DNA of 48,332 nucleotides from an uncultured Candidatus Saccharibacteria bacterium. Lineage in GTDB: Bacteria; Patescibacteriota; Saccharimonadia; Saccharimonadales; Saccharimonadaceae. Of the stretch, positions 1 through 44,805 are shown piece by piece (position 1 is the first letter of the stretch; each line of letters begins with the position of its first letter). Both the position numbers and the translations under genes were made by a program. The notes beneath the pieces are model-generated. The model made no database searches. It was given only the letters and a program-made list of their open reading frames with translations, and had not been told where the DNA came from. The stretch is taken from positions 1 to 48,332 of the forward strand of contig CAMVEA010000004.1 in NCBI GenBank assembly GCA_947166405.1, in the 5' to 3' direction.

Positions 1-650
1 CTGCCTCTTGACGATTCACATCAGTTACAAAGAATGGCGAAGAGTACCCCTTATCATATGAGAAACCTTCTACGATTTCCTGTTCCATCTCAAGCCCTTG
101 CCCAGCTTCCACCGTCACAACACCATCCTTACCAATCTTTGAGATAACCTCCGCAATCAATTCGCCAATCTCGGCATCACCTGCAGAAATCGTCGCGACC
201 TCCGCAACCTTATTCGATTTCCCTTCAATCTGCTCTGCCGACTTATCAATCTCAGCTACTATCTCAGTTCCAGCCTTTTCAATACCACGTCGAAGCTCCA
301 TCGGATTCACCCCTGCTGCAATCAGCTTATTTGCTTCGCTCAAAATATTATAAGTTAGTACAGTTACCGTAGTTGTACCATCACCAGCCGCCTTGTTCAA
401 CTTCTGCGCCGCAGTCTTGATCAACTTAGCACCCACGGCCTCACCAAGCGAATCTTCCTTATTAGGCAATTCTACGGCTTCTGCCACTGTTACACCATCA
501 TGAGTTATCACCGGTGCACCATATTCTTTTTCAATTACAACATTCTTACCCTTCGGACCAAATGTCACTTTCACTGCATCATACAGCTGCTTTGCCCCAG
601 ATAGCACTTTCTCTCGCGCCTCTGCTTCGTAGTATATTTTCTTTGCCATG
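1..650 (-). CDS. groEL: Chaperonin GroEL, N-terminal part (runs off the window)
   Basis: Large subunit of the GroEL/GroES ATP-driven folding chamber in the cytoplasm. About 216 codons are present, reading from an ATG at 650 to the left edge, so the gene is cut by the window rather than broken. The protein begins MAKKIYYEAEAREKV. The family ATP-site motif AGDGTTT is present at about residues 88-94, with its Asp at about 90, and NPMELRRGIE follows in the equatorial domain as expected. A ribosome site (AAGGAG) lies just upstream of the ATG. It follows groES on the same strand after a 122-bp gap, so the CIRCE-controlled groES promoter probably also drives it. Identity is certain. Confidence 0.97.
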
Positions 651-749
651 TTTTACTCCTTTTTTCGTAAACTCCGCTCATTTAGAGCAAACGTCCACAT
701 TATTTTTAATCTTAATAATTCTTAGTCCCACCCCTATATAAATGCATAC

Positions 750-769
750 TTTTCCACAAGTTTTCCACA
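750..769. repeat. Paired TTTTCCACA motif between groES and groEL
   Basis: Two direct copies of TTTTCCACA start at 750 and 761, about one helical turn apart, in the groES-groEL gap. The motif differs from the DnaA box TTATCCACA by one base. The same spaced pair recurs at 1639/1651 and 39068/39080, and single copies occur near dnaA. Binding by DnaA or another regulator is only a suggestion. Confidence 0.4.
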
Positions 770-772
770 ATT

Positions 773-1027
773 CTACAAAGTTGCCAGTATGTCCTCTTCC
801 TTCAAGATAATATAATCCGTCTCATCCACTTTTATCTCAGTCGTAGAATACTCTTTATATACAATCTTATCCCCCTTCTTTACCGATTTTACCTCTGGAC
901 CAACTGATTCGACTACAGCGTATGCTGGTTTTTCCTTCGCTTCTCCGAGCAATATTCCAGATTTTGTTTTTTCAAGCGGCTTTTCTACTACCGCCACTAC
1001 TCTATCTTTTAATGGTTTTAGTGACAT
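773..1027 (-). CDS. groES: Co-chaperonin GroES
   Basis: Ten-kilodalton lid of the GroEL chamber. The product is 84 residues (MSLKPLKDRVVAVVEKPLE...), somewhat short but complete, ending in the usual ILKEEDILATL-type strand. The start at 1027 is chosen because AAGGAG lies 7 bases upstream. A longer in-frame start at 1102 overlaps the -10 box of the promoter and would add a low-complexity Arg/Lys tail not found in the family. The gene precedes groEL on the same strand. The 5' untranslated region carries two copies of an AGAAAAGGAGAAAA element, only the second of which is placed to serve this start. Confidence 0.96.
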   Translation of the reverse strand: MSLKPLKDRVVAVVEKPLEKTKSGILLGEAKEKPAYAVVESVGPEVKSVKKGDKIVYKEYSTTEIKVDETDYIILKEEDILATL

Positions 1028-1100
1028 AGTTTTTTCTCCTTTTCTGCGCTCACGCATCCACACCCGATACGCACTACGCTTTTCTCCTTTTCTACCCTCC

Positions 1101-1128
1101 ATTATATCACAAAAATTAGCACTTGCAA
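1101..1128 (-). promoter_or_regulatory. groES promoter
   Basis: On the minus strand a -35 TTGCAA (1128-1123) and a -10 TATAAT (1106-1101) are separated by 16 bp. The -35 box lies inside the CIRCE inverted repeat, so a bound repressor would block RNA polymerase. Predicted transcription start is near 1094. Confidence 0.75.
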
Positions 1129-1142
1129 CCCCCGAGTGCTAA
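1116..1142. promoter_or_regulatory. CIRCE operator (HrcA site)
   Basis: The inverted repeat reads TTAGCACTT, then 9 bases, then GAGTGCTAA. This matches the CIRCE consensus (TTAGCACTC-N9-GAGTGCTAA) with one mismatch in one arm. CIRCE is the binding site of the heat-shock repressor HrcA. Its place over the groES promoter implies heat-inducible, HrcA-controlled chaperonin expression. hrcA itself is not in the window. Confidence 0.92.
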
Positions 1143-1157
1143 TTATTCTTCAAATCA

Positions 1158-1826
1158 CTAAAGACAAACTAATCTAAAACCTCTATTATCCAGATCGCCC
1201 CACTCATCCACCGCTTTCCTCACTCCAGGTAGCGCCGGATTACTATAATCATGTACCACCACTACTCCACCAAGAGCCATCCTCGGCACTACCAGCCTCA
1301 GCGAATCCTTAATCGATTCATAAAAATCCCCATCAAGAAACGCAAACGCAATCCGCTCCGGCAAATCCTCCTCCGACAAATCAGCAAACCACCCCTTTTT
1401 AATCACAGGCACTGGTAATCCAGCCCGCAAGAATCTCTCTTTCACTTCTCGCTTCGTCACCGCCAATTCCCCACCCCTAAAAGCCAACCCCAATACCGAC
1501 TCATCCACCTCACTCTTCTCTGGTAACCCTTCAAATGAATCATATATCCACAGCCTTTTCCGATTATTTCCACTAATCCCCTCTTCCACATCATTTCCAC
1601 CATTTTTGCCCAGCTTTTTCACAGATTCATCCACAGACTTTTCCACATAGTTTTCCACAGCTCCACCCCTATTATAATCCCTCAAAACCTCCGCCAGCAA
1701 CAGCGACGTATCTCCCCTATAACACCCCAATTCCACAAAATCCCCCTCTACGCCCAATGCACCCCTCGCAAGTTCAAGTATCTTCGCCGTCTCCCCACTC
1801 GTCACCTGATCATTTTTCCAACTCAT
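1158..1826 (-). CDS. TylF/MycF-like SAM-dependent O-methyltransferase
   Basis: Predicted class I methyltransferase of 222 residues. The SAM-binding motif I region VELGCYRGDTS is at residues 31-41. It is followed by LWIYDSFEGLPE, and the FLDGDFYES and VVVVHDYSNPA segments are typical of the TylF (macrocin O-methyltransferase) family, where Asp residues bind the metal. Members methylate sugar hydroxyls; the substrate here is unknown. The start ATG overlaps the stop of the preceding deaminase gene (ATGA), showing translational coupling. Residues of about 50-90 form a low-complexity Val/Glu/Lys/Asn/Gly insertion encoded by repeated GTGGAAAA-like units, probably a surface loop. Family assignment is good, function is open. 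Confidence 0.82.
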   Translation of the reverse strand: MSWKNDQVTSGETAKILELARGALGVEGDFVELGCYRGDTSLLLAEVLRDYNRGGAVENYVEKSVDESVKKLGKNGGNDVEEGISGNNRKRLWIYDSFEGLPEKSEVDESVLGLAFRGGELAVTKREVKERFLRAGLPVPVIKKGWFADLSEEDLPERIAFAFLDGDFYESIKDSLRLVVPRMALGGVVVVHDYSNPALPGVRKAVDEWGDLDNRGFRLVCL

Positions 1827-3148
1827 AATCCCACTTCCATCCCCAGCCTCTTCGCCATCGCATTACATCTCTCATACACTTCCTCCTCATCAAACGTCAA
1901 TATCTTCCTATCTTCCATCACCACTTCACCATTCACCATCATTGTCGTCACCTCCGACCCATTCGCACTATAGCACAATGCACTCACCAAATTGTTCCTC
2001 GGCACAAACTCCGGCTCTGTCAAATCAATCAAAATCAAATCCGCCAACGCTCCCTTAGCAACGACCCCAAGCAACCCCTCCATTCCGAGAGCTTTCGCCC
2101 CGCCAATCGTCGCAAACCTCACCACGTCCTCCGCATCCACACACTTCGCCCGTCCCGTATTACCCTTGTACACTAAACTCGCAAAATTCATCTCCTGAAA
2201 TAGATTCTGCGTATTATTACTACCATCGCCATCTGTCCCTAGACAAAGGTTCACCCCGGCCGCCAACATTTTATCTACCGGCGCAAACCCATTCCCAAGC
2301 TTCATATTACTCCGCGGATTAATTGCCACACTCACCCCTTTTTCCCGTAAAATCTCAATGTCCGAATCTGTCGCCTTCACTAAATGTGCAGCCACCACCG
2401 GTAAATCAAACAATCCAGTCTCCGCCACATACTCCACCGGTGACATCCCGAAGTCACGCCGAATCCCCTCAACCTCCGCATCGCTCTCGGCAATATGTAT
2501 CGTCGCAGGTATCCCACGCTCCAGCCCCACTCCTCTTACCAACTTCAACAAACTCATCGGCGCAGAATACGGCGCATGCGGCGCCAAGATAAACTTCACC
2601 CTGTCATTTCCAGCATAAGATTCCATATCCGCCAAAAACTCATTTAGCCGCCTCTGCGCCCCAGGCGTTTCTGCTTCCTCCACCAGACCTCTACCAATAT
2701 AAGCTCTCATTCCGCTATCATTCACTGCCCCCGACACCGCCCCCTCAGGACCAGCCACAGCCCTACCACTCCGCATACACATATCCACAAAACACGTCGT
2801 CCCAGTTTTCATCATCTCGATAATCGAAAGTAGCGACGCCCAATAGCAATCCTCCTCCGTCATCTCATCCTCTACCTTCTCAACCTTATGCAGCCAATCA
2901 AAAAACTCCAGATCATCTGCATAATTCCTAAAAATACTCATATACGCATGCGTATGCGCATTAATCAGCCCCGGCATCACCAACTTATCCGTCGCATCAA
3001 TCACTTTGTCAAACTCTTCATCCCTAACTTCACCAGGCTTCAAAACCTCGCAAATATATTTATCCTCCACCACCACATCGCGAAGAACCACCGCAAAATC
3101 CTCCCCCTCCATCACCAGCACTTCCCCATTCTTAATCAATGTTCTCAT
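1823..3148 (-). CDS. mtaD: 5-methylthioadenosine/S-adenosylhomocysteine deaminase-type amidohydrolase
   Basis: Zinc-dependent amidohydrolase of 441 residues, the usual length. Metal-binding NAHTHAYMS gives His65 and His67. The downstream APHAPYS, HIAESDAEVEG and LGTDGDGSNN motifs are those of the MtaD/SsnA/TrzN group. The family deaminates MTA or SAH to inosine analogues, but related enzymes act on guanine or other amino-heterocycles, so substrate is inferred. It overlaps its upstream neighbour by 4 bp (ATGA) and its downstream methyltransferase neighbour by 4 bp. A SAM-using methyltransferase directly after a SAH/MTA-type deaminase is a sensible by-product-removal pairing. Confidence 0.85.
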   Translation of the reverse strand: MRTLIKNGEVLVMEGEDFAVVLRDVVVEDKYICEVLKPGEVRDEEFDKVIDATDKLVMPGLINAHTHAYMSIFRNYADDLEFFDWLHKVEKVEDEMTEEDCYWASLLSIIEMMKTGTTCFVDMCMRSGRAVAGPEGAVSGAVNDSGMRAYIGRGLVEEAETPGAQRRLNEFLADMESYAGNDRVKFILAPHAPYSAPMSLLKLVRGVGLERGIPATIHIAESDAEVEGIRRDFGMSPVEYVAETGLFDLPVVAAHLVKATDSDIEILREKGVSVAINPRSNMKLGNGFAPVDKMLAAGVNLCLGTDGDGSNNTQNLFQEMNFASLVYKGNTGRAKCVDAEDVVRFATIGGAKALGMEGLLGVVAKGALADLILIDLTEPEFVPRNNLVSALCYSANGSEVTTMMVNGEVVMEDRKILTFDEEEVYERCNAMAKRLGMEVGL

Positions 3149-4760: not shown

Positions 4761-4826
4761 CCTTTATTCCCTGACTAGAGAATTCTTTGCCAATTAGGGC
4801 TCTGGAACGGCACAAAACTATAGAGC

Positions 4827-6674
4827 CTACGCGCCAGAGGCAACGCAGCGAATAGCCCACCCGCTATACTTGCTGCTGCCGCTCGTACCAGGGTAGACGC
4901 TGCTATTGTAGAAGTTCAGGTTGTAGGCGTTGAAGGAACTGCTCGCCGTAGACGACCAGTAGCGCCCGCGGGAGCCACGATAGTTCACCGAACCACTGTA
5001 GACGTAGCCGGAATAGACGAAGTTAACTGGATACTTACGCCATCGTAATGAGTCGGCTGCAGTGGATTGAGTTTGGCCAGTGCCACCCATTTTACGGTCT
5101 AAGTATGAGAATCCACCGACTTTGTTAGTTGTATCACTTTCTCCTTGTTCTATATCGCCTATGCTAGTGTTACCTAGTGGTATTTGCCAGCCAGTAGGGC
5201 AGATGGATGTAGTGTTGTGATCTCCACTGGTATAGTGTGTAGTATCTGCATTAGCAGCAGCCCAAGTGTAGTAGTTACCGTAGCTGTATGTATTGGCGCC
5301 TGTAGCAGGAGCAGAGGCTCTATCGGATGTATTTTGGTTGTTATAGCGTGGGAATCTATAACCTGCATTGCTAGTGCCGATGTTTATTGTATCGTCTGCA
5401 CCATCGGTGCTATATAGACTATTGGCAGTTGTAATGTTATTAGCCCATGGGGACTCAGGATTAGCTAGCCCTGCAAACTGACCGCCGTAGCCTTGGGCGA
5501 GTGAGCCGTCAGAATTGCCTGTGGCGGTGTTGTCTAGGCGCATATTTTCAATCATCCAGCATTTACCATCTGCAAGCTTAGCAATGGCATAGGTGTTGTT
5601 GTCACGCTGGTCGGTGAGGGCGGAGACGGAAGAGAGGTTAGCAGTGCCATCTATTGGGGCGGCGGTGAGAGAGTTACAGACAGTAGAGACTTTGGCTGAG
5701 TCTTGGAGATTACCTTGGCTCTTAACCCATACAGCGTAGAGCGAGAGGCCTGGGTTGGTGCCAGTGTAGTCGGCAGTGTTTAATGTGATGGTTTCATTTG
5801 GGCCATAGAACTTAGCCTCAGGATTCGTGGCATAGTCAAATTTATCACTCCATCCAGCGAAGCCATAGCCAGTGCGGCTGAAGTTGGATGGAAGGAGGGT
5901 GACTTCTGATGCAATGTCTTGGTCAGCCATAGTGCCTTGGTAGTCTAGTACATTAGCAAAGTAGCGAATCTTACCAGTTTCTGTAGATTGTGGCGTTATT
6001 GGAGCAGGTTTTGTAGATGGATGTACTAGCGTGTATTTCACTTTACCAGTGTAAGTATCTGCAGCTTGAGTGCCACTGATGTAGGCGGCATAAGTGGTCT
6101 CAATACTACTACCAGTTCCTCCTTCGGCGTCTGTAGTGTTGCCATAAGTTGCTACCTTTTCATAAGTGTCTGGTACTATGTGATAGTCTTCACTGTCGTA
6201 ATTGTTTTCAATTGTAGGAGCATAGGTACCCGTGACTGGAGTTATACGCATTGCCCATTGGCTGGTACCAGTCTTGGCTGTACCGGTACTTATCTTCTGG
6301 TTGGTATTGGTGCCGATGAGTTTAGTATGGTCATCACCAGTGTACTGATCTCCGGTGTAGCCAATAGCATAGATGGCATAACCACCTGAGTCATTGCAAT
6401 AAGCCGTAATAGTGGTCTTGCCGATATTATTCTGATAGGTATTTGGAGTAATTGATGCTGTATGTTCATTACCTGTAGCAATATTACCGCTCATAGTACA
6501 GGCACTGGGGACTGTAATACTAACTTCATCTACTGTATCAGTATCTGCATTTACTCTCACAGAAGACAAAACAGCTACAGAAATCAATGTTACTGCAACC
6601 ATACCACCAGCTATTATGAGTTCTGTTTTAATATTTGTATTATTCTCTATATAGTTATATTGTATACCTTTCAT
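4827..6674 (-). CDS. Secreted FISUMP-domain protein A, probable DGR variable protein
   Basis: A 615-residue membrane-anchored or secreted protein. A hydrophobic segment at about 18-40 is a signal or anchor. Residues 45-220 form a Thr/Gly-rich domain with Cys residues. Residues 258-318 (GYGFAGWSD... LYAVWV) resemble InlB-type Listeria-Bacteroides repeats. Residues ~350-612 are a FISUMP domain (DQRDNNTYAIAKL, GKCWMIENMRL, SICPTGWQIP, RYWSSTAS, AIRCVA), a C-type-lectin-like fold. The only close relative here is the gene at 6903-8783. The last ~50 codons differ from it almost only at first and second codon positions in AAC-type codons (residues 559-607), as in DGR targets. The promoter gives a message starting at the ATG, with no ribosome site. 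Ligand binding on the cell surface is likely; ligand unknown. Confidence 0.85.
   Translation of the reverse strand: MKGIQYNYIENNTNIKTELIIAGGMVAVTLISVAVLSSVRVNADTDTVDEVSITVPSACTMSGNIATGNEHTASITPNTYQNNIGKTTITAYCNDSGGYAIYAIGYTGDQYTGDDHTKLIGTNTNQKISTGTAKTGTSQWAMRITPVTGTYAPTIENNYDSEDYHIVPDTYEKVATYGNTTDAEGGTGSSIETTYAAYISGTQAADTYTGKVKYTLVHPSTKPAPITPQSTETGKIRYFANVLDYQGTMADQDIASEVTLLPSNFSRTGYGFAGWSDKFDYATNPEAKFYGPNETITLNTADYTGTNPGLSLYAVWVKSQGNLQDSAKVSTVCNSLTAAPIDGTANLSSVSALTDQRDNNTYAIAKLADGKCWMIENMRLDNTATGNSDGSLAQGYGGQFAGLANPESPWANNITTANSLYSTDGADDTINIGTSNAGYRFPRYNNQNTSDRASAPATGANTYSYGNYYTWAAANADTTHYTSGDHNTTSICPTGWQIPLGNTSIGDIEQGESDTTNKVGGFSYLDRKMGGTGQTQSTAADSLRWRKYPVNFVYSGYVYSGSVNYRGSRGRYWSSTASSSFNAYNLNFYNSSVYPGTSGSSKYSGWAIRCVASGA
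4854..5000 (-). other. Putative DGR variable repeat VR-A
   Basis: This 49-codon stretch aligns with 6930-7076 without gaps. Seventeen codons differ, sixteen of them changing the residue; examples are TAC/GTC, TAT/ggt, CGC/TAC, AAC/CTC, AGC/TAC, TAC/AGC, AGC/CAC and AGC/CTC. Twenty-six of 27 base differences are in codon positions 1 or 2, and all of those can derive from A in a common template. Flanking bases to 5024 and to 4738 are otherwise nearly identical. The location at the C-terminal end of a lectin-like domain is the standard DGR location. Confidence 0.82.
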
Positions 6675-6680
6675 ACTACT

Positions 6681-6686
6681 ATTTTA
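6681..6686 (-). promoter_or_regulatory. Extended -10 of FISUMP gene A
   Basis: On the minus strand TGT-TAAAAT ends 7 bp before the ATG at 6674, so transcription should begin at or next to the start codon. No ribosome site is visible. No convincing -35 was found. The gap 6687-6813 to the next gene holds only AT-rich sequence and the hairpin of gene B. Confidence 0.55.
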
Positions 6687-6813
6687 ACATAACTATTTTA
6701 AAAAATGGACACTTTTTCACTAACTCACTACATCGCTTACACTTTTTGTTTGTAAATAGTTATTCCAATGATAGCAAATATCAACCCGACTATCCCATTT
6801 TCTATAAATAAGA

Positions 6814-6836
6814 AAAATCGCCCATCAGACGATTTT
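6814..6836 (-). terminator. Hairpin 3' of the second FISUMP gene, probable terminator
   Basis: Same AAAATCG-(9)-CGATTTT hairpin as at 4738-4760, at the same distance from the stop codon. The roughly 66 bases between hairpin and stop codon are identical in the two loci except for one base. Confidence 0.6.
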
Positions 6837-6902
6837 CCTTTATTCCCTGACTAGAGAATTCTTTGCCAATTAGGGCTCTGGAACGGCACAAAACTATAGA
6901 AC

Positions 6903-8783
6903 CTACGCGCCAGAAGCAACGCAGCGAATAGTCCACCCGAGATACTTGTAGCTGTCGTGCGTACCAGGGCTGACGTAGCTATTGTAGAAGAGCAGGTAGT
7001 AGGCGAGGTAAGAACTGCTCGCCGTAGACGACCAGTAGTACCCGTGGGAGCCACGACCGTTCACCGAACCACCGACGACGTAGCCGGAATAGACGAAGTT
7101 GTTAGGATAAGCTCTAAGTTTATTTGAAGCGTCACTTCCTTCTGGAGTGCCTGTGTAGTATGGCTGGGTGCTGCTTTCGTAGTTGGCTGGATTAGTGCCA
7201 CCATTAATACCAGTAACGATAAGTGACCAGAATTCATTGTTAGCTTCATTGGATTTATTACCACCCTTCGGTAGATGCCAACTAGCTGGGCAGATTGAGG
7301 TAGTATTGTGGTCGCCACTGGTATAGTTTGTAGTGTCAGCAATAGCTGAAGCCCAAGTGTAGTAGTTACCGTAGCTGTATGTATTGACACCTGTAGCAGG
7401 AGCAGAGGCTCTATCGGATGTATTTTGGTTGTTATAGCGTGGGAATATATAACCTGCATTGCTAGTGCCGATGTTTATTGTATTGTCTGCACCATCGGTG
7501 CTATATAGACTATTGGCAGTTGTAATGTTATTAGCCCATGGGGATTCAGGACTAGCTAGCCCTGCAAACTGACCGCCGTAGCCTTGGGCGAGTAAGCCGT
7601 CAGAATTGCCAGTGGCGGTGTTGTCTAGGCGCATATTCTCAATCATCCAGCATTTACCATCTGCAAGCTTGGCGATGGCATAGGTGTTGTTGTCACGCTG
7701 ATCAGTAAGGGCGGAGACGGAAGAGAGGTTAGCAGTGCCGTCTATTGGAGCTGTGGTGAGGGAGTTACAGACACTTGCTACTTTGTCTGAGTCTTGGAGG
7801 TTACCTTGAGATTTAACCCATACAGCGTAGAGGGAGAGACCTGGGTTAGTGCCAGTGTAATCGGCAGTGTTTAGTGTGATGGTTTCATTTGGACCGTAGA
7901 AATGAGCGTTGGGATTCGTAGCATAATCAAAAGCATCGCTCCATCCTGCAAAGCCATAGCCATTGCGACTATAATTACTGGCAAGTAATGTGACTGAGGA
8001 GGATACATTTTGTTCGCCCATAGTACCCACTACTGCGCTACCATTTGGCCAGTAATGGATTTTACCAGTCGTGGTAGTTTCAGGATGAAGTGGGATTTCA
8101 GTATTAGGATGTACTAACGTATATTTAACTTTACCAACATAAGTATCCGCTACTTGAGTACCCGAGATATAGGCTGCGTAAGTGGTAGATAGTACTGAAC
8201 CTAGTGTCATATCGGTAGTAGATGTATAATTGGCTACTTTGGTGTAGGTGTCTGGGATGACGTTGTAATCATCATAACCGTTTTCTATGCTGAGGTTGGC
8301 TGGGTTATAACTCTGGGCAGAATCTGTGACTTTGGTAAGTTTCATTGCCCAGTTGGATGTACCGCCACTAGTAGCAGTACCTGTGGCAATCTTCTCACCT
8401 ACAGACTGCCCAATGAGTTTAGTATGGTCCTCGCCAGTATAACTATCACCAGTGTAGCCTATGGCGTAGATAGCATAGCCACTGTTATCATTACAGAAGG
8501 TAGCGATGGTGGTCTTACCGATACCATCAGCATAATCTTCTGTCCCACCAGAATATATACCATTAGCAAGAGTCGCATTGTGTGGAGTATCTAGTGTAGC
8601 CGTCATAGAACACGATGCCGCCACAGTAACTGAAGCGGTAGATACAGTAGTATCATTATCCTCTGCATTGACTCTAATGGATGATACTACTGTTCCACTA
8701 AGTACGGTTAGTCCAATTAGGCTTAGTACGCCTATATATAATATATAGTCACTATTTAACCTTTTAGTTTTAGCTTTTAACAT
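6903..8783 (-). CDS. Secreted FISUMP-domain protein B, probable DGR variable protein
   Basis: A 626-residue paralogue of the protein encoded at 4827-6674 with the same order: anchor or signal segment (~17-38), Thr-rich N-terminal domain, InlB-like repeat, FISUMP lectin-like domain. The core from LYAVWV to TSICP is almost identical to protein A. The next ~60 residues (GGNKSNEANNEFWS...) are unrelated to A, and identity returns abruptly at NFVYSGYV. The variable region is at residues 570-618 of 626. Unlike A, this gene has a strong ribosome site (AAGGAGG) before its ATG. It lies downstream of uvrA on the same strand behind its own promoter. Function is inferred as variable surface recognition. 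Confidence 0.85.
   Translation of the reverse strand: MLKAKTKRLNSDYILYIGVLSLIGLTVLSGTVVSSIRVNAEDNDTTVSTASVTVAASCSMTATLDTPHNATLANGIYSGGTEDYADGIGKTTIATFCNDNSGYAIYAIGYTGDSYTGEDHTKLIGQSVGEKIATGTATSGGTSNWAMKLTKVTDSAQSYNPANLSIENGYDDYNVIPDTYTKVANYTSTTDMTLGSVLSTTYAAYISGTQVADTYVGKVKYTLVHPNTEIPLHPETTTTGKIHYWPNGSAVVGTMGEQNVSSSVTLLASNYSRNGYGFAGWSDAFDYATNPNAHFYGPNETITLNTADYTGTNPGLSLYAVWVKSQGNLQDSDKVASVCNSLTTAPIDGTANLSSVSALTDQRDNNTYAIAKLADGKCWMIENMRLDNTATGNSDGLLAQGYGGQFAGLASPESPWANNITTANSLYSTDGADNTINIGTSNAGYIFPRYNNQNTSDRASAPATGVNTYSYGNYYTWASAIADTTNYTSGDHNTTSICPASWHLPKGGNKSNEANNEFWSLIVTGINGGTNPANYESSTQPYYTGTPEGSDASNKLRAYPNNFVYSGYVVGGSVNGRGSHGYYWSSTASSSYLAYYLLFYNSYVSPGTHDSYKYLGWTIRCVASGA
6930..7076 (-). other. 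Putative DGR variable repeat VR-B
   Basis: Counterpart of VR-A at a constant 2076-bp offset. Variable codons in this copy include GTC, GGT, CAC, TAC, CTC, AGC and GAC where the other copy has a different outcome, each reachable from AAC, AAT, CAC, TAC or GAC by changes at A only. Invariant framework words such as TGGTCGTCTACGGCGAGCAG are kept base for base. No template repeat with A at these positions was found in the window. Confidence 0.82.
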
Positions 8784-34388: not shown

Positions 34389-36134
34389 TCATTTATTCAT
34401 AATTTTTATTTCAATTGCTTCAATCCTCTTAGCCTGCCCAGTCGTACCAGCTATTTCTCCATTCTTCACCCAACTCATCCACCCATAATCTTGCACATGT
34501 ACCCTATAATAAATATCGTATTTCAATTCCAAACCATTAGTCAATTCAATCATAATTGCCTCCATCCTCTTAGACAAACCAGTAGTACCACCAACATTTC
34601 CCCCAATTACCCAATCCATCCAACCAAAATCTTGCGCATGAACCTTATAACGCAAATTATTATTTGCCACCGAACCACTCAATTTTATATTAATTGCCTC
34701 CATTCTTTTCCACTGCCCAGTCGTACCAGCCAACTCTCCATTTCTTACCCAGTTCATCCAACCATAATCCTCTACGTGCCCAGCATACTCTACATTCACA
34801 TTTTCTTGTTTCTCCACAATCTTAATCTGAACAGCTTCTATTTTTAAAGATTGCCCAGTCGTACCAGCTACTTCCCCATTTCTCATCCAATCCATCCAAC
34901 CAATATTCTCTACATGAACCCTATAAAGGACATCATACTTTTTTGCCATCTCACCATAAAGATTAATCTGAACAGCTTCTATGCGCAATCCACTACCAGG
35001 CAGACCACTCGTCCCACCATCCCTTATCATGTTATTCTCCCATCCTATCTCCTGAATATGACTCCTGTACTCAATGCCAGACCCTTCTTTTAATTTAAGA
35101 CTTAGTGCCTCCATCCGTAAATTATGACCAGTCGTTCCCAACATTTTTCCTCCATCAATCACACCCAACCAACCATAATCCCTCACAAAAGCATTCTGCT
35201 CAAAAGCAACTGACGTAGATTCATCTGGAACTCTCACCATATTAGCCATAATTGATTGTATGCTAGGTAACTCTTTCGTCACCCCACCAAACCAATCCTG
35301 AAAATATGAATAAAAATTCCTATTCCCATAAGAAGAACATGCATCCCCAGTTCCATACCCAGCTGCAAGCGCCATTGCATTTGGCTGATATGGAGTATAT
35401 TGATACAATGAAGAAGTTGCACGATTTTTAATATTAACTACAGTTCCGCCACATCCAGCATTTGGATTATATTGCACATAATTATTTCCTACTGGATAAT
35501 AACGCGAACCATTATCCAAAACATAACGGTATAGTGCTGCAGCATTCCTTATTTGGTTTTTAAAACCATAATATTTAGACGAACATGCAGCCGTATCAGG
35601 ACAACCATATCCAGTCGCTTTCCTATAATCACTGTTATTCGGAATTCTATCCGTAATTAACCCAGTCTCTTTCTGCAATAACACCAACAACACTTGAGGA
35701 TTTATCCTATAATCCTGTGCTGCTTGCCATATTATATGAGCTGCACTTTCACCATACTGAAATCCAATCTCATTATCATTATTTCCAAATCTTTCCTCCG
35801 ACAAACATACAAAATGTCCATTATCCCAATGCCAAATATATTTTACATTTGCCGATAGTCTTTGATAATAACCATAATCCCTATTATCACAAGGATTTTT
35901 CGCCGTAAGCCAAGCCTGAATATCCGCTTCAGTCATTGAATTATAATTCCCCATTTGATAATCCGAAATAATATAACCAGGATCAAAACCAGCAAATGAA
36001 GCTGCGTCGGCATTATTGTCATCTTTATATCGTTGTGTCATAAAAACAAACAAAAAAACTCCAACAAAAATTCCAATCAACAAATACCTCAATCTCGTAT
36101 CGCGACGCCTTACAGCCAAACCAGAACTAGACAT
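34389..36134 (-). CDS. Secreted lysozyme-like protein with six ChW repeats, copy 1
   Basis: A 581-residue surface protein. A membrane/signal helix spans ~17-32. Residues ~40-285 form a compact Cys-containing domain whose INPQVLLVLLQKETGLI segment resembles the catalytic-Glu helix of lytic transglycosylase or glucosaminidase-like domains common in Gram-positive secreted proteins. Six tandem repeats with the GW...G...GTTG....EAI pattern follow (for example GWMDWMRNGEVAGTTG), matching clostridial hydrophobic W (ChW) repeats used in surface binding. The catalytic domain is DNA-identical to that of the gene at 36925-38673. It follows the 197-residue membrane protein gene by 3 bp. Wall remodelling or host adhesion are both possible. 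Confidence 0.78.
   Translation of the reverse strand: MSSSGLAVRRRDTRLRYLLIGIFVGVFLFVFMTQRYKDDNNADAASFAGFDPGYIISDYQMGNYNSMTEADIQAWLTAKNPCDNRDYGYYQRLSANVKYIWHWDNGHFVCLSEERFGNNDNEIGFQYGESAAHIIWQAAQDYRINPQVLLVLLQKETGLITDRIPNNSDYRKATGYGCPDTAACSSKYYGFKNQIRNAAALYRYVLDNGSRYYPVGNNYVQYNPNAGCGGTVVNIKNRATSSLYQYTPYQPNAMALAAGYGTGDACSSYGNRNFYSYFQDWFGGVTKELPSIQSIMANMVRVPDESTSVAFEQNAFVRDYGWLGVIDGGKMLGTTGHNLRMEALSLKLKEGSGIEYRSHIQEIGWENNMIRDGGTSGLPGSGLRIEAVQINLYGEMAKKYDVLYRVHVENIGWMDWMRNGEVAGTTGQSLKIEAVQIKIVEKQENVNVEYAGHVEDYGWMNWVRNGELAGTTGQWKRMEAINIKLSGSVANNNLRYKVHAQDFGWMDWVIGGNVGGTTGLSKRMEAIMIELTNGLELKYDIYYRVHVQDYGWMSWVKNGEIAGTTGQAKRIEAIEIKIMNK
35278..36021. repeat. 744-bp exact direct repeat, copy 1
   Basis: By line-by-line reading this segment is identical to 37820-38563 at a constant offset of 2542 bp. 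It covers the whole N-terminal domain of the ChW protein from just after the signal helix to the start of the repeats. Sequence on both sides diverges at once. This is a mark of recent gene conversion or partial duplication. Confidence 0.9.
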
Positions 36135-36924: not shown

Positions 36925-38673
36925 TCATTTTTTTGTTATTCTAATCTCCAAAGCTTCCATTTGCCATCCTCTTCCAGTAGTTCCAGCTATTTGCCCGTTC
37001 TTTAGCCATGGTTGCCATCCTATATTCGCTACGTGCACTCGATAATTAACATCGTAATCTCTAGCCAAGCCTGCATCAAGTTGAATTTGTATTGCCTCCA
37101 TCTGCCTCGATTCGCCAACAGTCCCAGACATTCTCCCATTACTGGACCATCCTAACCACCCCCTACCAGAAACGTGAGTTCGATAATAAATACTATGACC
37201 ATTTGTCAATTCAATTGGAAGCTTAATCATTACAGCCTCCATTCTCCTCGATTCACCAACCGTACCCGCCATACCACCACTTCTCATCCAGCTTAACCAC
37301 CCATAGTCAGCTACATGCGCCTCATATAAAGGACCATAATCCTTTTTTATAATCTTTATTTGAATCGCCTCCAACTGTCTATACTCACCAGTGGTACCAG
37401 CCACTTCCCCATTTTTCATCCATTCCATCCAACCAATATTAGCAGCATGTACACGATAATAAATATCGTAGTTTTTTGACAACTCACTATTCAACCTAAT
37501 CTGCACAGCCTCAATTCTAAGCGAACGCCCCGTCGTTCCACTAACCTCACCATCCTTATGATAAACGTTTTCCCATCCAACATCCTGAATATGCGACCTA
37601 TATTCTATTCCTTTATATTCCTCAAGTGCAACCGCAAAGGCTTCCATCCTTATACCATATCCAACCGTTCCAGTCATCTCACCACCATTCACTGGTGGAT
37701 CCATCCAACCAAAATTTGCGACATGTGCATTGTATTTCATCGCCAAATCGTTTTGCTCATTTGGTACCCTAACCATGTTAGAACGGACTTCTTGAATTGT
37801 TATTTCCTTCCCTTCTTTTGTCACCCCACCAAACCAATCCTGAAAATATGAATAAAAATTCCTATTCCCATAAGAAGAACATGCATCCCCAGTTCCATAC
37901 CCAGCTGCAAGCGCCATTGCATTTGGCTGATATGGAGTATATTGATACAATGAAGAAGTTGCACGATTTTTAATATTAACTACAGTTCCGCCACATCCAG
38001 CATTTGGATTATATTGCACATAATTATTTCCTACTGGATAATAACGCGAACCATTATCCAAAACATAACGGTATAGTGCTGCAGCATTCCTTATTTGGTT
38101 TTTAAAACCATAATATTTAGACGAACATGCAGCCGTATCAGGACAACCATATCCAGTCGCTTTCCTATAATCACTGTTATTCGGAATTCTATCCGTAATT
38201 AACCCAGTCTCTTTCTGCAATAACACCAACAACACTTGAGGATTTATCCTATAATCCTGTGCTGCTTGCCATATTATATGAGCTGCACTTTCACCATACT
38301 GAAATCCAATCTCATTATCATTATTTCCAAATCTTTCCTCCGACAAACATACAAAATGTCCATTATCCCAATGCCAAATATATTTTACATTTGCCGATAG
38401 TCTTTGATAATAACCATAATCCCTATTATCACAAGGATTTTTCGCCGTAAGCCAAGCCTGAATATCCGCTTCAGTCATTGAATTATAATTCCCCATTTGA
38501 TAATCCGAAATAATATAACCAGGATCAAAACCAGCAAATGAAGCTGCGTCGGCATTATTGTCACTACAATACCATTGCGTAATAACAAACACAAATACCA
38601 CAATAAAAAATACTATATTTCCAAATCTAATCTTCTTATTACAACGGCACGCATAATAACTAGAAATAAACAT
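36925..38673 (-). CDS. Secreted lysozyme-like protein with six ChW repeats, copy 2
   Basis: A 582-residue paralogue of the protein at 34389-36134. The membrane helix (~17-33) and its flanks are diverged, the ~250-residue N-terminal domain is identical, and the six ChW repeats are clearly diverged (for example GWMEWMKNGEVAGTTG and GWLGWSSNGRMSGTVG). So the enzymatic part is fixed while the binding part differs. Its ATG lies inside a 40-codon upstream reading frame in another frame, which has its own ribosome site and could couple translation. Confidence 0.78.
   Translation of the reverse strand: MFISSYYACRCNKKIRFGNIVFFIVVFVFVITQWYCSDNNADAASFAGFDPGYIISDYQMGNYNSMTEADIQAWLTAKNPCDNRDYGYYQRLSANVKYIWHWDNGHFVCLSEERFGNNDNEIGFQYGESAAHIIWQAAQDYRINPQVLLVLLQKETGLITDRIPNNSDYRKATGYGCPDTAACSSKYYGFKNQIRNAAALYRYVLDNGSRYYPVGNNYVQYNPNAGCGGTVVNIKNRATSSLYQYTPYQPNAMALAAGYGTGDACSSYGNRNFYSYFQDWFGGVTKEGKEITIQEVRSNMVRVPNEQNDLAMKYNAHVANFGWMDPPVNGGEMTGTVGYGIRMEAFAVALEEYKGIEYRSHIQDVGWENVYHKDGEVSGTTGRSLRIEAVQIRLNSELSKNYDIYYRVHAANIGWMEWMKNGEVAGTTGEYRQLEAIQIKIIKKDYGPLYEAHVADYGWLSWMRSGGMAGTVGESRRMEAVMIKLPIELTNGHSIYYRTHVSGRGWLGWSSNGRMSGTVGESRQMEAIQIQLDAGLARDYDVNYRVHVANIGWQPWLKNGQIAGTTGRGWQMEALEIRITKK
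37820..38563. repeat. 744-bp exact direct repeat, copy 2
   Basis: Second copy of the segment at 35278-36021. The repeat ends exactly where the membrane helix and the ChW region begin to differ between the two genes. Confidence 0.9.
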
Positions 38674-41455: not shown

Positions 41456-42205
41456 TTAACGTTTTTTCAAAAATAACCGAACACCATAAGCAACACCAGA
41501 CAACAATACAATTACTCCAGCCGAGTACAATAAAGGACTCACATTATCGATATAAGAAACTGTATTTAAGCCAGTATCAGGACTCTCAGGGGTAGCAACC
41601 TCCGTAGAAGATGAACTACTGGAATTATCAGCAACACCATCCTCTGAATCATCTGGAACCACAACAGGCTCAGAGTCCTCCTCTTCCCTAGCATATGCAA
41701 GAAGGTGAAGACTAAACGCACCATTACTATGTTCATTACTAAGTTCACTACTTAAAACAATCTCAGTAAACAAAGGCTCTGTCACATCACCTACGGCAAG
41801 TTTTGTTGCATAATCATAGCAATTCCCAGAAGCGGGATCCGAAGAATCATTTATCGAGTTATCATTAAGGCTCCAATTCTCATTAATATTAATCCCAAAA
41901 GTATTCGATGGAAGACTAATTAACTCTCCATTCCCACCAATCGCCGACTCCGACAAGCACATTTGCACAAACACCGGCACCGATCCATCATTCCTAACTC
42001 GAGGAATCGCACTATAAGTCATCCCAGGCATCGCATCAGTAATATCCTCCCAATATTTATATCCTCCACTTCCATCCTCAACCAACTCTACTATACTGAT
42101 ATCCACCGACCCACTCGCAAAGACAGGAACAGAAACAAAACCACCAACCGTTCCAGCCAATAAAACACTCGCCGCACAAAGGCAAAATCTTCTTTCTTTG
42201 GTCAT
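41456..42205 (-). CDS. Camelysin/TasA-like surface protein with SPDTG sorting-type tail
   Basis: A 249-residue exported protein. A signal peptide occupies ~1-30 (LCAASVLLAGTVGGFVSVPVFA). A beta-rich domain with DISIVELVEDGSGGYKYWEDI and RNDGSVPVFVQMCLSES resembles the camelysin/TasA core. An acidic Ser-rich linker (~175-205) leads to SPDTG at 208-212, a hydrophobic helix at 224-242 and FLKKR. That tripartite tail is like a sortase signal but with P-D-T-G in place of LPxTG. No sortase gene is in the window. It is last in the SipW/TasA-type operon, after a GC-rich hairpin. Confidence 0.72.
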   Translation of the reverse strand: MTKERRFCLCAASVLLAGTVGGFVSVPVFASGSVDISIVELVEDGSGGYKYWEDITDAMPGMTYSAIPRVRNDGSVPVFVQMCLSESAIGGNGELISLPSNTFGININENWSLNDNSINDSSDPASGNCYDYATKLAVGDVTEPLFTEIVLSSELSNEHSNGAFSLHLLAYAREEEDSEPVVVPDDSEDGVADNSSSSSSTEVATPESPDTGLNTVSYIDNVSPLLYSAGVIVLLSGVAYGVRLFLKKR

Positions 42206-42252
42206 CTTATTCCCTTTCCTCTCTCAATTAAAGTATTACTACCCCCATAGAA

Positions 42253-42276
42253 GGTCGGCCAGTTCCCTAGCCGACC
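42253..42276 (-). terminator. GC-rich hairpin between two operon genes
   Basis: GGTCGGC and GCCGACC form a 7-bp stem with a 10-base loop, in the 87-bp gap between the TasA-like gene and the SPDTG protein gene. No T-run follows on the minus strand, so it is more likely a partial attenuator or an RNA-stabilising structure that sets the ratio of the two products. Confidence 0.5.
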
Positions 42277-42292
42277 CATGTTTGTTCTAATA

Positions 42293-43249
42293 TTAAAGAG
42301 CGTTGATAGCTTCAACGGCATCACCAAATGTCCTAGCCTGGATAGCTTTTGCTTCAACATCAATATTGAAAACAAACCCAGGTTCAACATAAGTAGCAGT
42401 TGCAGTACTATCTGACCTTTGAATATCACTATTAAGCTTAATAGTATTCACTGGGCTCCAGAAAGTCATCTCACCCGGTTTAAGAGCCTTCTTGGTCACG
42501 GCAGAATACACCATAAAGTCACCTTCTTCGTAACCCTTATAAGCCTTTAGTTCAGCTTTTGTCATTGTCCTTTCTTCATAGTTATCGCCAACCTTTTCAA
42601 CTACGGCAAAGTAAGGGTTTACACCATCAGCTTCCGCATCAGCATCTTCAAGAAATGGAGTACTTGGAATATTTACTGTAAGCTTATTATTGAGATCCTT
42701 AGGAACCTTATAACTAATCATTACATAAGCATCACTAGCCTCTTCATTATTTTGAACATAAGAAAACTTACGAATATTCTGACCAGGAACAATGTCACTA
42801 GCAACGTCTGTCAAATAACCGGTCTGGTAGGTCTGTGCATCGGTTTTAATGGTTTCGTCGCTATAACCCCAATTCCTACCAGCATTAGTCATACTCTTAC
42901 CAATAGCAGAAATTGCATCCTCCCTACTAACTTCATTCATATTTGGTGTACAATAAGCAGCTTTATCATAAGAACCACTAATCAAAGTACTATCACCTGC
43001 AGTTGTCTCAACGGTAGCATTCCAATCACAATAATGCTCATCTGAAGCCAAAGCTGGGAAATTACCCATACGGCCAGAGTTCTGACGATGTAATTGTGAC
43101 TCATACAAAGTAATATCTACATCACCAACAGTAAAGGTATTTCTTGCCGTATCAGTATCTGTAAAATACGCAATCGTCCCACCAGCTACAAGTGCTGCTG
43201 CGCCAAGTACTGCTGCTGTTGATAAAACTGTTCTTCTATTGATTTTCAT
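42293..43249 (-). CDS. TasA-like protein with SipW-type signal peptide
   Basis: A 318-residue exported protein. The N-terminus RRTVLSTAAVLGAAALVAGGTIAYFTDTDTARNTFTVGDVDI has the exact layout of SipW-dependent signal peptides, with cleavage expected near GGTIA-YFTD. The remaining domain carries four Cys and the TasA/camelysin-like pattern YVMISYKVPK. Relatives form matrix fibres in Bacillus. It follows a second TasA-like gene and a SipW-like peptidase gene on the same strand. AAGGAG precedes the ATG. Fibre formation here is inferred. Confidence 0.8.
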   Translation of the reverse strand: MKINRRTVLSTAAVLGAAALVAGGTIAYFTDTDTARNTFTVGDVDITLYESQLHRQNSGRMGNFPALASDEHYCDWNATVETTAGDSTLISGSYDKAAYCTPNMNEVSREDAISAIGKSMTNAGRNWGYSDETIKTDAQTYQTGYLTDVASDIVPGQNIRKFSYVQNNEEASDAYVMISYKVPKDLNNKLTVNIPSTPFLEDADAEADGVNPYFAVVEKVGDNYEERTMTKAELKAYKGYEEGDFMVYSAVTKKALKPGEMTFWSPVNTIKLNSDIQRSDSTATATYVEPGFVFNIDVEAKAIQARTFGDAVEAINAL

Positions 43250-43293
43250 TATAATAACTCCTTATATTATTAATTATTATTTAACAAATTAAA

Positions 43294-43974
43294 TTAATAT
43301 GTTTCCGCTAAGTTCTCGAAGGCTTGTATTGCATTCGTAAACCCAGTAGTCTGAATTACATCTGAATAGGCTTTTACACCAAATGAACATTTATTAGCAT
43401 CGTTACTCTCGCATGTTGCGATACTATCGAAATCCTCGACACTCGAAATGTTACCCACCGCGATTGCCGAAGTTGGCCACTCGCTAGTCTTCGCACCAAC
43501 TTCTAGTACATTATTACTCAAAATGTAATATTCAGCATAAGTTGGCTCATTATTAACATCTACAGATTTATCATAAATAACACTATAATTTGCATTATTA
43601 CATCTACTTATATCTGTATCAGTTTCATCTACAACTAACGAACAGTTATCCATCTTTAGTGTCAGCACATCAGCTAATTTAATTGGAATCACTACGCGGA
43701 ATCTCTGATACAATGGAATATTACCATTATTAGTCGCCTGTAAATAGTATGATACATCTTTCATACCATCAGTCAACGGATTCAATCCTGTTGTATCAAA
43801 CGGCGTACCATAGACATCTTTATAAACCACAAGTTCCGTCGAAGCATTACCAATCGTAAAATCATTCTGCTTACTATCAGAATCAGTAAAATACGACAAT
43901 GTCCCAGCAGAACTTAGTACACAAACAGTCATTAGTACTAATGAAACCACCGTGATTCTAATCTTGTAATACAT
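43294..43974 (-). CDS. TasA-like protein with SipW-type signal peptide
   Basis: A 226-residue exported protein, paralogous in layout to its downstream neighbour. The signal reads ITVVSLVLMTVCVLSSAGTLSYFTDSDSKQNDFTIG. The mature part has four Cys, including CNNANYS and CESNDANKCSFG, which may form disulphides. GGAGG lies three bases before the ATG, a strong site. Both proteins are natural clients of the signal peptidase encoded upstream. Confidence 0.78.
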   Translation of the reverse strand: MYYKIRITVVSLVLMTVCVLSSAGTLSYFTDSDSKQNDFTIGNASTELVVYKDVYGTPFDTTGLNPLTDGMKDVSYYLQATNNGNIPLYQRFRVVIPIKLADVLTLKMDNCSLVVDETDTDISRCNNANYSVIYDKSVDVNNEPTYAEYYILSNNVLEVGAKTSEWPTSAIAVGNISSVEDFDSIATCESNDANKCSFGVKAYSDVIQTTGFTNAIQAFENLAETY

Positions 43975-44018
43975 TCACCTCCTTTCTCCACACTTATATT
44001 TATATCCACCCCATTTTT

Positions 44019-44789
44019 TTACGCTACACTTTTTCTCGCAGTTTTCCTCCTTTCTTCCAGTGTACCTGGTAAAAACGTCCACGCTAGTAGGAGAGTTCCC
44101 ACCACTAGTGCGATATATATTCCAGGCGGCCGCTGTATATTATATGCAAAAAACCCAATTAGCGGAATAGTAATCACAGGCGTACCCAGTACATTCTTAT
44201 AATGCACTAGCTTCGCATCTGCTGATGTATTTGCATCCCCCTTCGTCCTAAAACGCCATATACTTGAATCAATACTATCAATCTCAATCTCAGCAATCCT
44301 ATGCGTCACCACAGTCTTATCATCATTTGCTACAAACGATATTACATCCCCTACTTTGAGTTCACGATAATTCACCGGCTTCACATAAATCAAAGAGCCT
44401 ACCGAATATTCAGGGGTCATCGATCCAGACATCACAGTAAAAGTTCGAAACCCAGCCAAACGAAGCCCAACTAGCACCGCAGCGCAAATCGCAATCATTG
44501 TCACAGCAACCGTTCCTAACCTAGAACGCCATATTCTGAAGCGACGCCTCTCTGTTTTTACCTCAGCAGATTTCTCTATCACGTTAACTATTACGGGTTC
44601 ATGCCTATCCACAACATTATTATCTATTAAATCCTCATCCCGAACCTCGGTCACATTTATCACCCTGGAATTCTTAATAACATCAATCTTTTCTGACTCA
44701 TTAGTCAAATTCTTTTTTATTACAGAAACCACAGGATAATAAATCTCATCATGGGCTTCAACCGCTAGTTTTACCTTTACTCCACTCAT
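44019..44789 (-). CDS. sipW: SipW/ER-type signal peptidase I
   Basis: A 256-residue membrane peptidase. A charged N-terminal cytoplasmic stretch of ~85 residues precedes a helix at ~88-110. FTVMSGSMTPEYSVGSLIYV has the catalytic Ser, and VVTHRIAEIE has a His in place of the bacterial Lys, as in SipW and eukaryotic/archaeal signal peptidases. Two more helices close the protein. The start at 44789 is chosen because a longer one at 44801 overlaps the -10 box. It is first in the operon with two TasA-like genes, the same pairing as in Bacillus tasA-sipW. Confidence 0.88.
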   Translation of the reverse strand: MSGVKVKLAVEAHDEIYYPVVSVIKKNLTNESEKIDVIKNSRVINVTEVRDEDLIDNNVVDRHEPVIVNVIEKSAEVKTERRRFRIWRSRLGTVAVTMIAICAAVLVGLRLAGFRTFTVMSGSMTPEYSVGSLIYVKPVNYRELKVGDVISFVANDDKTVVTHRIAEIEIDSIDSSIWRFRTKGDANTSADAKLVHYKNVLGTPVITIPLIGFFAYNIQRPPGIYIALVVGTLLLAWTFLPGTLEERRKTARKSVA

Positions 44790-44799
44790 TAATATAACC

Positions 44800-44805
44800 A
44801 TTATA
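44800..44805 (-). promoter_or_regulatory. -10 of the sipW/TasA-like operon
   Basis: TATAAT on the minus strand (44805-44800) ends 10 bp before the ATG at 44789. Predicted leader is about 3 nt, so translation is leaderless or nearly so. Confidence 0.55.

Follow-up and report, generated by a model that had tools for sequence, protein, structure and literature searches.

Matched DGR variable repeats in two FISUMP genes of a Saccharibacteria genome with a large set of VR-ended genes

Two FISUMP genes of a gut-type Saccharibacteria bacterium end in variable repeats (VR1 and VR2) that differ at 27 of the 64 columns where a template repeat (TR) from another contig of the genome has adenine, and at only one of the other 125. 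An earlier note on this DNA had proposed that the two genes carry a matched pair of DGR-type variable repeats, and these counts bear it out. We conclude, with a probability of about 0.93, that VR1 and VR2 are DGR variable repeats, that the three loci of this genome combining a reverse transcriptase (RT) with a TR serve a large set of FISUMP genes, and that the template for the VR subtype found here acts in trans.

The window, meaning the whole stretch of DNA that was analysed (48,332 nucleotides), is contig C4 of a Saccharibacteria MAG assembly (1,075,560 bases, 95 contigs, completeness 97.9%). The features of the window that concern us are the following.

4827..6674, minus strand: FISUMP gene 1, 615 amino acids, an open reading frame matching TIGR02145 (FISUMP) at 51.5 bits, above the cut-off; an N-terminal hydrophobic segment is followed by the body and by a C-terminal FISUMP domain with VR1 at its end
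4827..5024, minus strand: VR1, encoding NFVYSG...IRCVASGA, with 124/125 non-A and 37/64 A-position identity to VR2
4780..4826, minus strand: 3′ flank beyond the stop of gene 1, common to gene 2 (BLAST homology to 6856-6902), with the hairpin GGCTCT...AGAGCC (hairpin scan)
5025..5260, minus strand: gene 1 segment directly upstream of VR1, whose body type differs from that of gene 2 (the two are 64% identical across 240 nt)
6903..8783, minus strand: FISUMP gene 2, 626 amino acids, an open reading frame with the architecture of gene 1 and VR2 at its end (TIGR02145, 58.2 bits)
6903..7100, minus strand: VR2, from homology and the comparison of A and non-A columns with VR1
6856..6902, minus strand: 3′ flank of gene 2, common to gene 1 (BLAST homology)

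Both genes exceed the NCBIfam cut-off for TIGR02145 (41.65 bits), and in both the VR occupies the 3′ end of a FISUMP-family target gene. The flank with the hairpin at 4780..4826 is possibly IMH-side sequence. The hairpin scan found post-stop flanks and short hairpins shared among VR ends, but these are non-uniform across VR types, and an Rfam search near the FISUMP genes returned no match. The predicted structure of the FISUMP domain (pLDDT 38) was too poor for fold assignment, and a profile search of the PDB with this domain gave no match; the putative C-type-lectin fold of the VR-bearing domain rests on FISUMP family membership.

The differences between the two repeats are concentrated at adenines. 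Alignment of 4833-5021 against 6909-7097 (189 nt) gave 28 differences: codon positions 1 and 2 have 13 each, and position 3 has two. One copy has A at 22 of them, where base composition predicts 37% (p=9e-6). The counts of the earlier note were recovered from this alignment: 27 differences over 49 codons (147 nt), the 28th falling outside that stretch; 26 of the 27 in codon positions 1 or 2, with one synonymous third-position change; and A in one copy at 22. The TR of contig C7 provided an independent test, since this template comes from another contig. Its A columns (64/189) take 27 of the 28 differences (Fisher p=5e-14). As a control, 150 conserved codons from the bodies of genes 1 and 2 showed 29 differences, of which 19 were in third positions and 12 involved A. 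The gene bodies therefore show the opposite pattern, indicating that the adenine pattern is special to the repeat, and the view that it resembles neither drift nor ordinary positive selection holds (third positions take 19/29 differences in the body and 2/28 in the VR).

The homology of the repeats sets in abruptly at ...NFVYSG (5024 and 7100, respectively) and extends beyond the stop codons to about 4780 and 6856. The 240 nt upstream of VR1 and VR2 share just 64% identity, against near-complete identity at the non-A columns of the repeats. This is not what a simple duplication would leave, and it indicates that one template was written into two different gene bodies.

A DGR-type RT, which the earlier note proposed to look for in the full genome, is present three times over, each time with an A-bearing template. 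Three RTs above the Pfam RVT_1 cut-off were found, on contigs C7, C29, and C37, all with the IGNLTSQ and YVDD motifs and each with an adjacent TR. The best PDB match of the C7 RT is the BPP-1 bRT (8ub7, E=2.5e-23), and an RT match to phrog_1423 was also obtained (E=9e-74). All three complete DGR loci display the same order: the target gene comes first, then the accessory gene and the RT, and after these an A-rich TR in convergent orientation. The TRs adjoining the RTs are the following.

C7, 17318-17506, minus strand: TR
C29, 6154-6339, minus strand: TR
C37, 1594-1782, plus strand: TR

Each TR is a short open frame; that of C7 translates as NVNSGSVNNRGSNGNYWSSTANNNNNAYNLNLNSTNVNPGTNNNNKYNG, and those of the other loci are close variants. 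Comparison of cis VRs with their own TRs revealed changes at 20/64 A positions and 0/125 others in C7, and at 13/59 A positions and 0/127 others in C29. In the coding sense the variation affects A rather than T, so the template RNA would have to be transcribed in the opposite direction to the RT gene. As a separate observation, the sheep ileum Saccharibacteria L114 has two tandem TR-like repeats beside one RT (2301-2510 and 2920-3129, minus strand), which differ at a few positions.

The accessory gene of these loci encodes a protein of about 340 amino acids with an N-terminal XRE-type HTH. Its predicted fold (pLDDT ~80) consists of an alpha/beta middle part, which may resemble MutS domain I, and a C-terminal four-helix bundle. 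The bundle matched the Avd of BPP-1 (4dwl, Z 13.5; 8ub7, Z 13.4) and, at Z 14-16, a pair of small proteins from bacteria, of which one belongs to the S23 family; unrelated bundles scored lower, at ~11. For helical bundles, Z values like those for Avd are near the level that may reflect a shared arrangement only. The Avd-like part had no match among Pfam or NCBIfam families. We predict that the accessory protein is an HTH / alpha-beta / Avd-like fusion, and both its position and its context favour a role as Avd. No account of an HTH-Avd fusion turned up in the literature searched, the coverage of which was incomplete.

The VRs of the window belong to a subtype with five members: VR1, VR2, and those of C34 (1811-2014), C37 (7347-7550), and C44 (6338-6541). 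Searches of the 95-contig assembly for a TR of this subtype, using DNA and two patterns, matched these five VRs only. The TRs of C7, C37, and C29 were rejected as donors, with non-A identities of 74-76%. The end of contig C42 was likewise rejected as a TR: it holds 62 nt of the 3′ part of the repeat but has no RT downstream, unlike the other TR loci. Nevertheless, the sister species G152 has a closely similar TR adjoining an RT (FVYSGNVNGGSVNNRGSNGNFWSSTANSSNNAYNLNLNSSNVNPGTNNNNKYNGRTVRCVAPGV). Hence, of the A-bearing template expected to match both window VRs, a close version exists in this relative, while the exact window type was not found in the assembly. The cis VR of G152 agrees with its own TR at 144/144 non-A positions and has 21 A changes. 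From the A columns of this TR one can predict which columns vary in the window subtype (39/50 vs 11/139, p=1.4e-20). In another relative, G105, uvrA and an amidohydrolase gene flank a FISUMP gene, an arrangement also seen in the window, and this FISUMP gene ends in a VR of the same kind. Since the template of their own type is missing from the assembly and the G152 TR predicts their variable columns, we infer that diversification of the window genes occurs in trans, from a template that either escaped assembly or was lost recently.

One could instead regard the window VRs as fossils, left fixed after the DGR TR, and perhaps the RT, disappeared from the lineage. The absence of their own TR type from a 98%-complete assembly speaks for this, as does contig C80, where an RT remnant in another frame directly follows a FISUMP gene (363-476 and 508-2313, minus strand), a decayed DGR locus indicating that such loci do decay in this genome. 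Even so, the single non-A difference between VR1 and VR2 among 125 columns argues that both were written recently from one template. Contigs also break at VR-type repeats, as in C44, whose copy begins where the contig does, and in C42, which terminates within the repeat type of the window; the TR locus may thus simply have escaped assembly. We consider the fossil explanation possible but unlikely.

The VR types are decoupled from the gene bodies that carry them. Gene 1 and a gene of C15 are 92% identical directly upstream of the VR and 70% at VR non-A positions; likewise, the C37 gene at 7347 and a gene of C17 are 90% identical upstream and 66% at these positions. Genes 1 and 2 display the reverse, with 64% upstream and 99% at VR non-A positions. 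This would fit retrohoming or recombination into non-cognate targets. The 3′ flanks at C42 6500-6609 and C61 579-830 resemble junctions of two VR flank types, and look as if the VR of one template type had entered a target of another. Recombination may therefore contribute, and the shuffling of VR types among bodies, together with the junction-like flanks of C61 and C42, might be read as gene conversion among paralogue VRs without reverse transcription. However, conversion moves differences jointly and cannot yield A-only differences in otherwise identical copies, and we judge it very improbable as the source of the pattern. Ordinary paralogue divergence under positive selection at a binding site would suit the fact that most changes alter amino acids within a predicted binding domain, but it is almost certainly wrong, since it would neither choose adenines (27 of 28 differences are at template-A columns and the other columns are 124/125 identical) nor freeze third positions, at which the neighbouring gene body drifts normally, and it is contradicted by the 33 A and zero non-A changes of the cis TR-VR pairs.

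The set of genes open to DGR action is large. Searching the genome with a profile built on the VR end (68 aa) gave 66 matches, among them the three TRs. Leaving these out and retaining matches with E below 1e-22, we catalogued 43 VR-ended FISUMP genes, which are scattered over the chromosome and together occupy ~74 kb (6.9% of the assembly) when truncated genes are counted. For 24 of the 43, at least 75% of changes against an assembled TR fall at A, the filter that Roux et al. apply to candidates that fall outside the main DGR clade in the tree (PMC8144416). The C29 template type comprises 19 VR-ended genes and the C7/C37 type eight; eight genes with an 'LMG' end and the five of the window subtype lack a close TR among the assembled contigs. 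Genome-wide, Fib_succ_major had 57 matches, including multi-domain proteins of ~970-1240 amino acids (C7, C3, C32), and the more divergent Fib_succ_major ends are unlike the VRs of the assembled TRs. The system is also present in relatives. Among the RT relatives, those whose records are named come from Candidatus Saccharibacteria MAGs (S16M_St_32, roe deer rumen, sheep ileum), and an RT match was found in 24 of 35 sampled relatives within the genus. FISUMP ends matching the VR profile occur in 116 of 118 genus genomes, counted as profile matches and not as individually confirmed VRs. Most of the relatives' loci that were read follow the order target, accessory, RT, convergent TR.

Based on these findings, we postulate that an A-rich TR RNA would be reverse transcribed by the DGR RT with errors at adenines, assisted by the HTH/Avd-like accessory protein, and that the cDNA would replace the 3′ end of any FISUMP gene with a matching repeat and flank, in cis or in trans. 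The outcome would be the conversion of mostly AAC/AAT codons into NNY codons, and the three assembled RT/TR loci would act on many genes across the chromosome. Judging from the sequences, the DGRs may still be active in this genome. The varied face of the FISUMP proteins is probably outside the cell, since these proteins have an N-terminal hydrophobic segment and carry the VR at the other end, and the varied binding surfaces would most plausibly serve to attach to host bacteria or to escape from phage or host defence. A broader proposal, to which we give even odds, is a genome-wide multi-template DGR network: ~43 surface-type genes (~7% of the assembly) would act as interchangeable recipients for four or more template types, VRs would be swapped between bodies, and the HTH-Avd fusion would couple DNA binding to mutagenic retrohoming, creating an antigenic-variation-like repertoire for host and phage interactions.

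These results have implications for the biology of Saccharibacteria, whose host-range determinants are largely unknown: the ~43 catalogued rewritable proteins and their templates are testable candidates for host binding and phage evasion. Spending ~7% of a 1-Mb genome on DGR targets speaks against the picture of genomes reduced to essentials, and surveys conducted contig by contig overlook most DGR targets.

Other loci of the window encode exported-type proteins. Two tandem secreted-type proteins (34389-36134 and 36925-38673, minus strand) have a 250-aa stretch in common (748/750 nt identical), which may reflect a recent N-terminal duplication or conversion, and differ in their repeat-rich, ChW-like C-termini (GW.W...GE..GTTG). 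Meanwhile, a cluster at 41456-44801 (minus strand) comprises an apparent signal peptidase (44019-44801), camelysin/TasA-like exported proteins (42293-43249 and 43294-43974), and another exported protein, and is possibly a fibre or matrix system.

The kind of system described here is already known, while its scale is unusual for a 1-Mb parasite-like bacterium. It is reminiscent of the BPP-1 DGR (bRT, Avd, TR, mtd VR) in its sequence-related RT, A-specific changes from TR to VR, 3′-terminal position of the VR in the target gene, and Avd-like helical bundle. Unlike that system, it is cellular, its TR is convergent to the RT, its Avd-like domain is fused to an HTH, and it has many FISUMP targets where BPP-1 has one, Mtd. 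Thiohalocapsa PB-PSB1, termed exceptional, has nine DGR loci, and its 14 diversified targets are linked with conflict systems of the NACHT/MoxR type (PMC10907252). Both genomes hold several DGRs, and trans action in Thiohalocapsa follows from targets that match a remote TR at all non-A sites; here, in contrast, a genome of 1.08 Mb has three assembled loci and ~43 FISUMP genes with VR ends. Cellular DGRs are significantly commoner in CPR bacteria, and fragmented assemblies hide remote DGR targets (PMC8144416). The present system is cellular like those of Patescibacteria/CPR (clade 2 and others), but here a whole-genome search recovered a large remote target set. FISUMP/Fib_succ_major and the similar DUF1566 are already among the DGR target domains of human metagenomes (PMC4159848, Table 2), with nine Fib_succ_major proteins across metagenomes, whereas here the family is expanded within one genome and its genus. 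For certain DGRs, Yan et al. report VR copies numbering from a dozen to hundreds (PMC6642488), and thus we claim no record for the number of targets.
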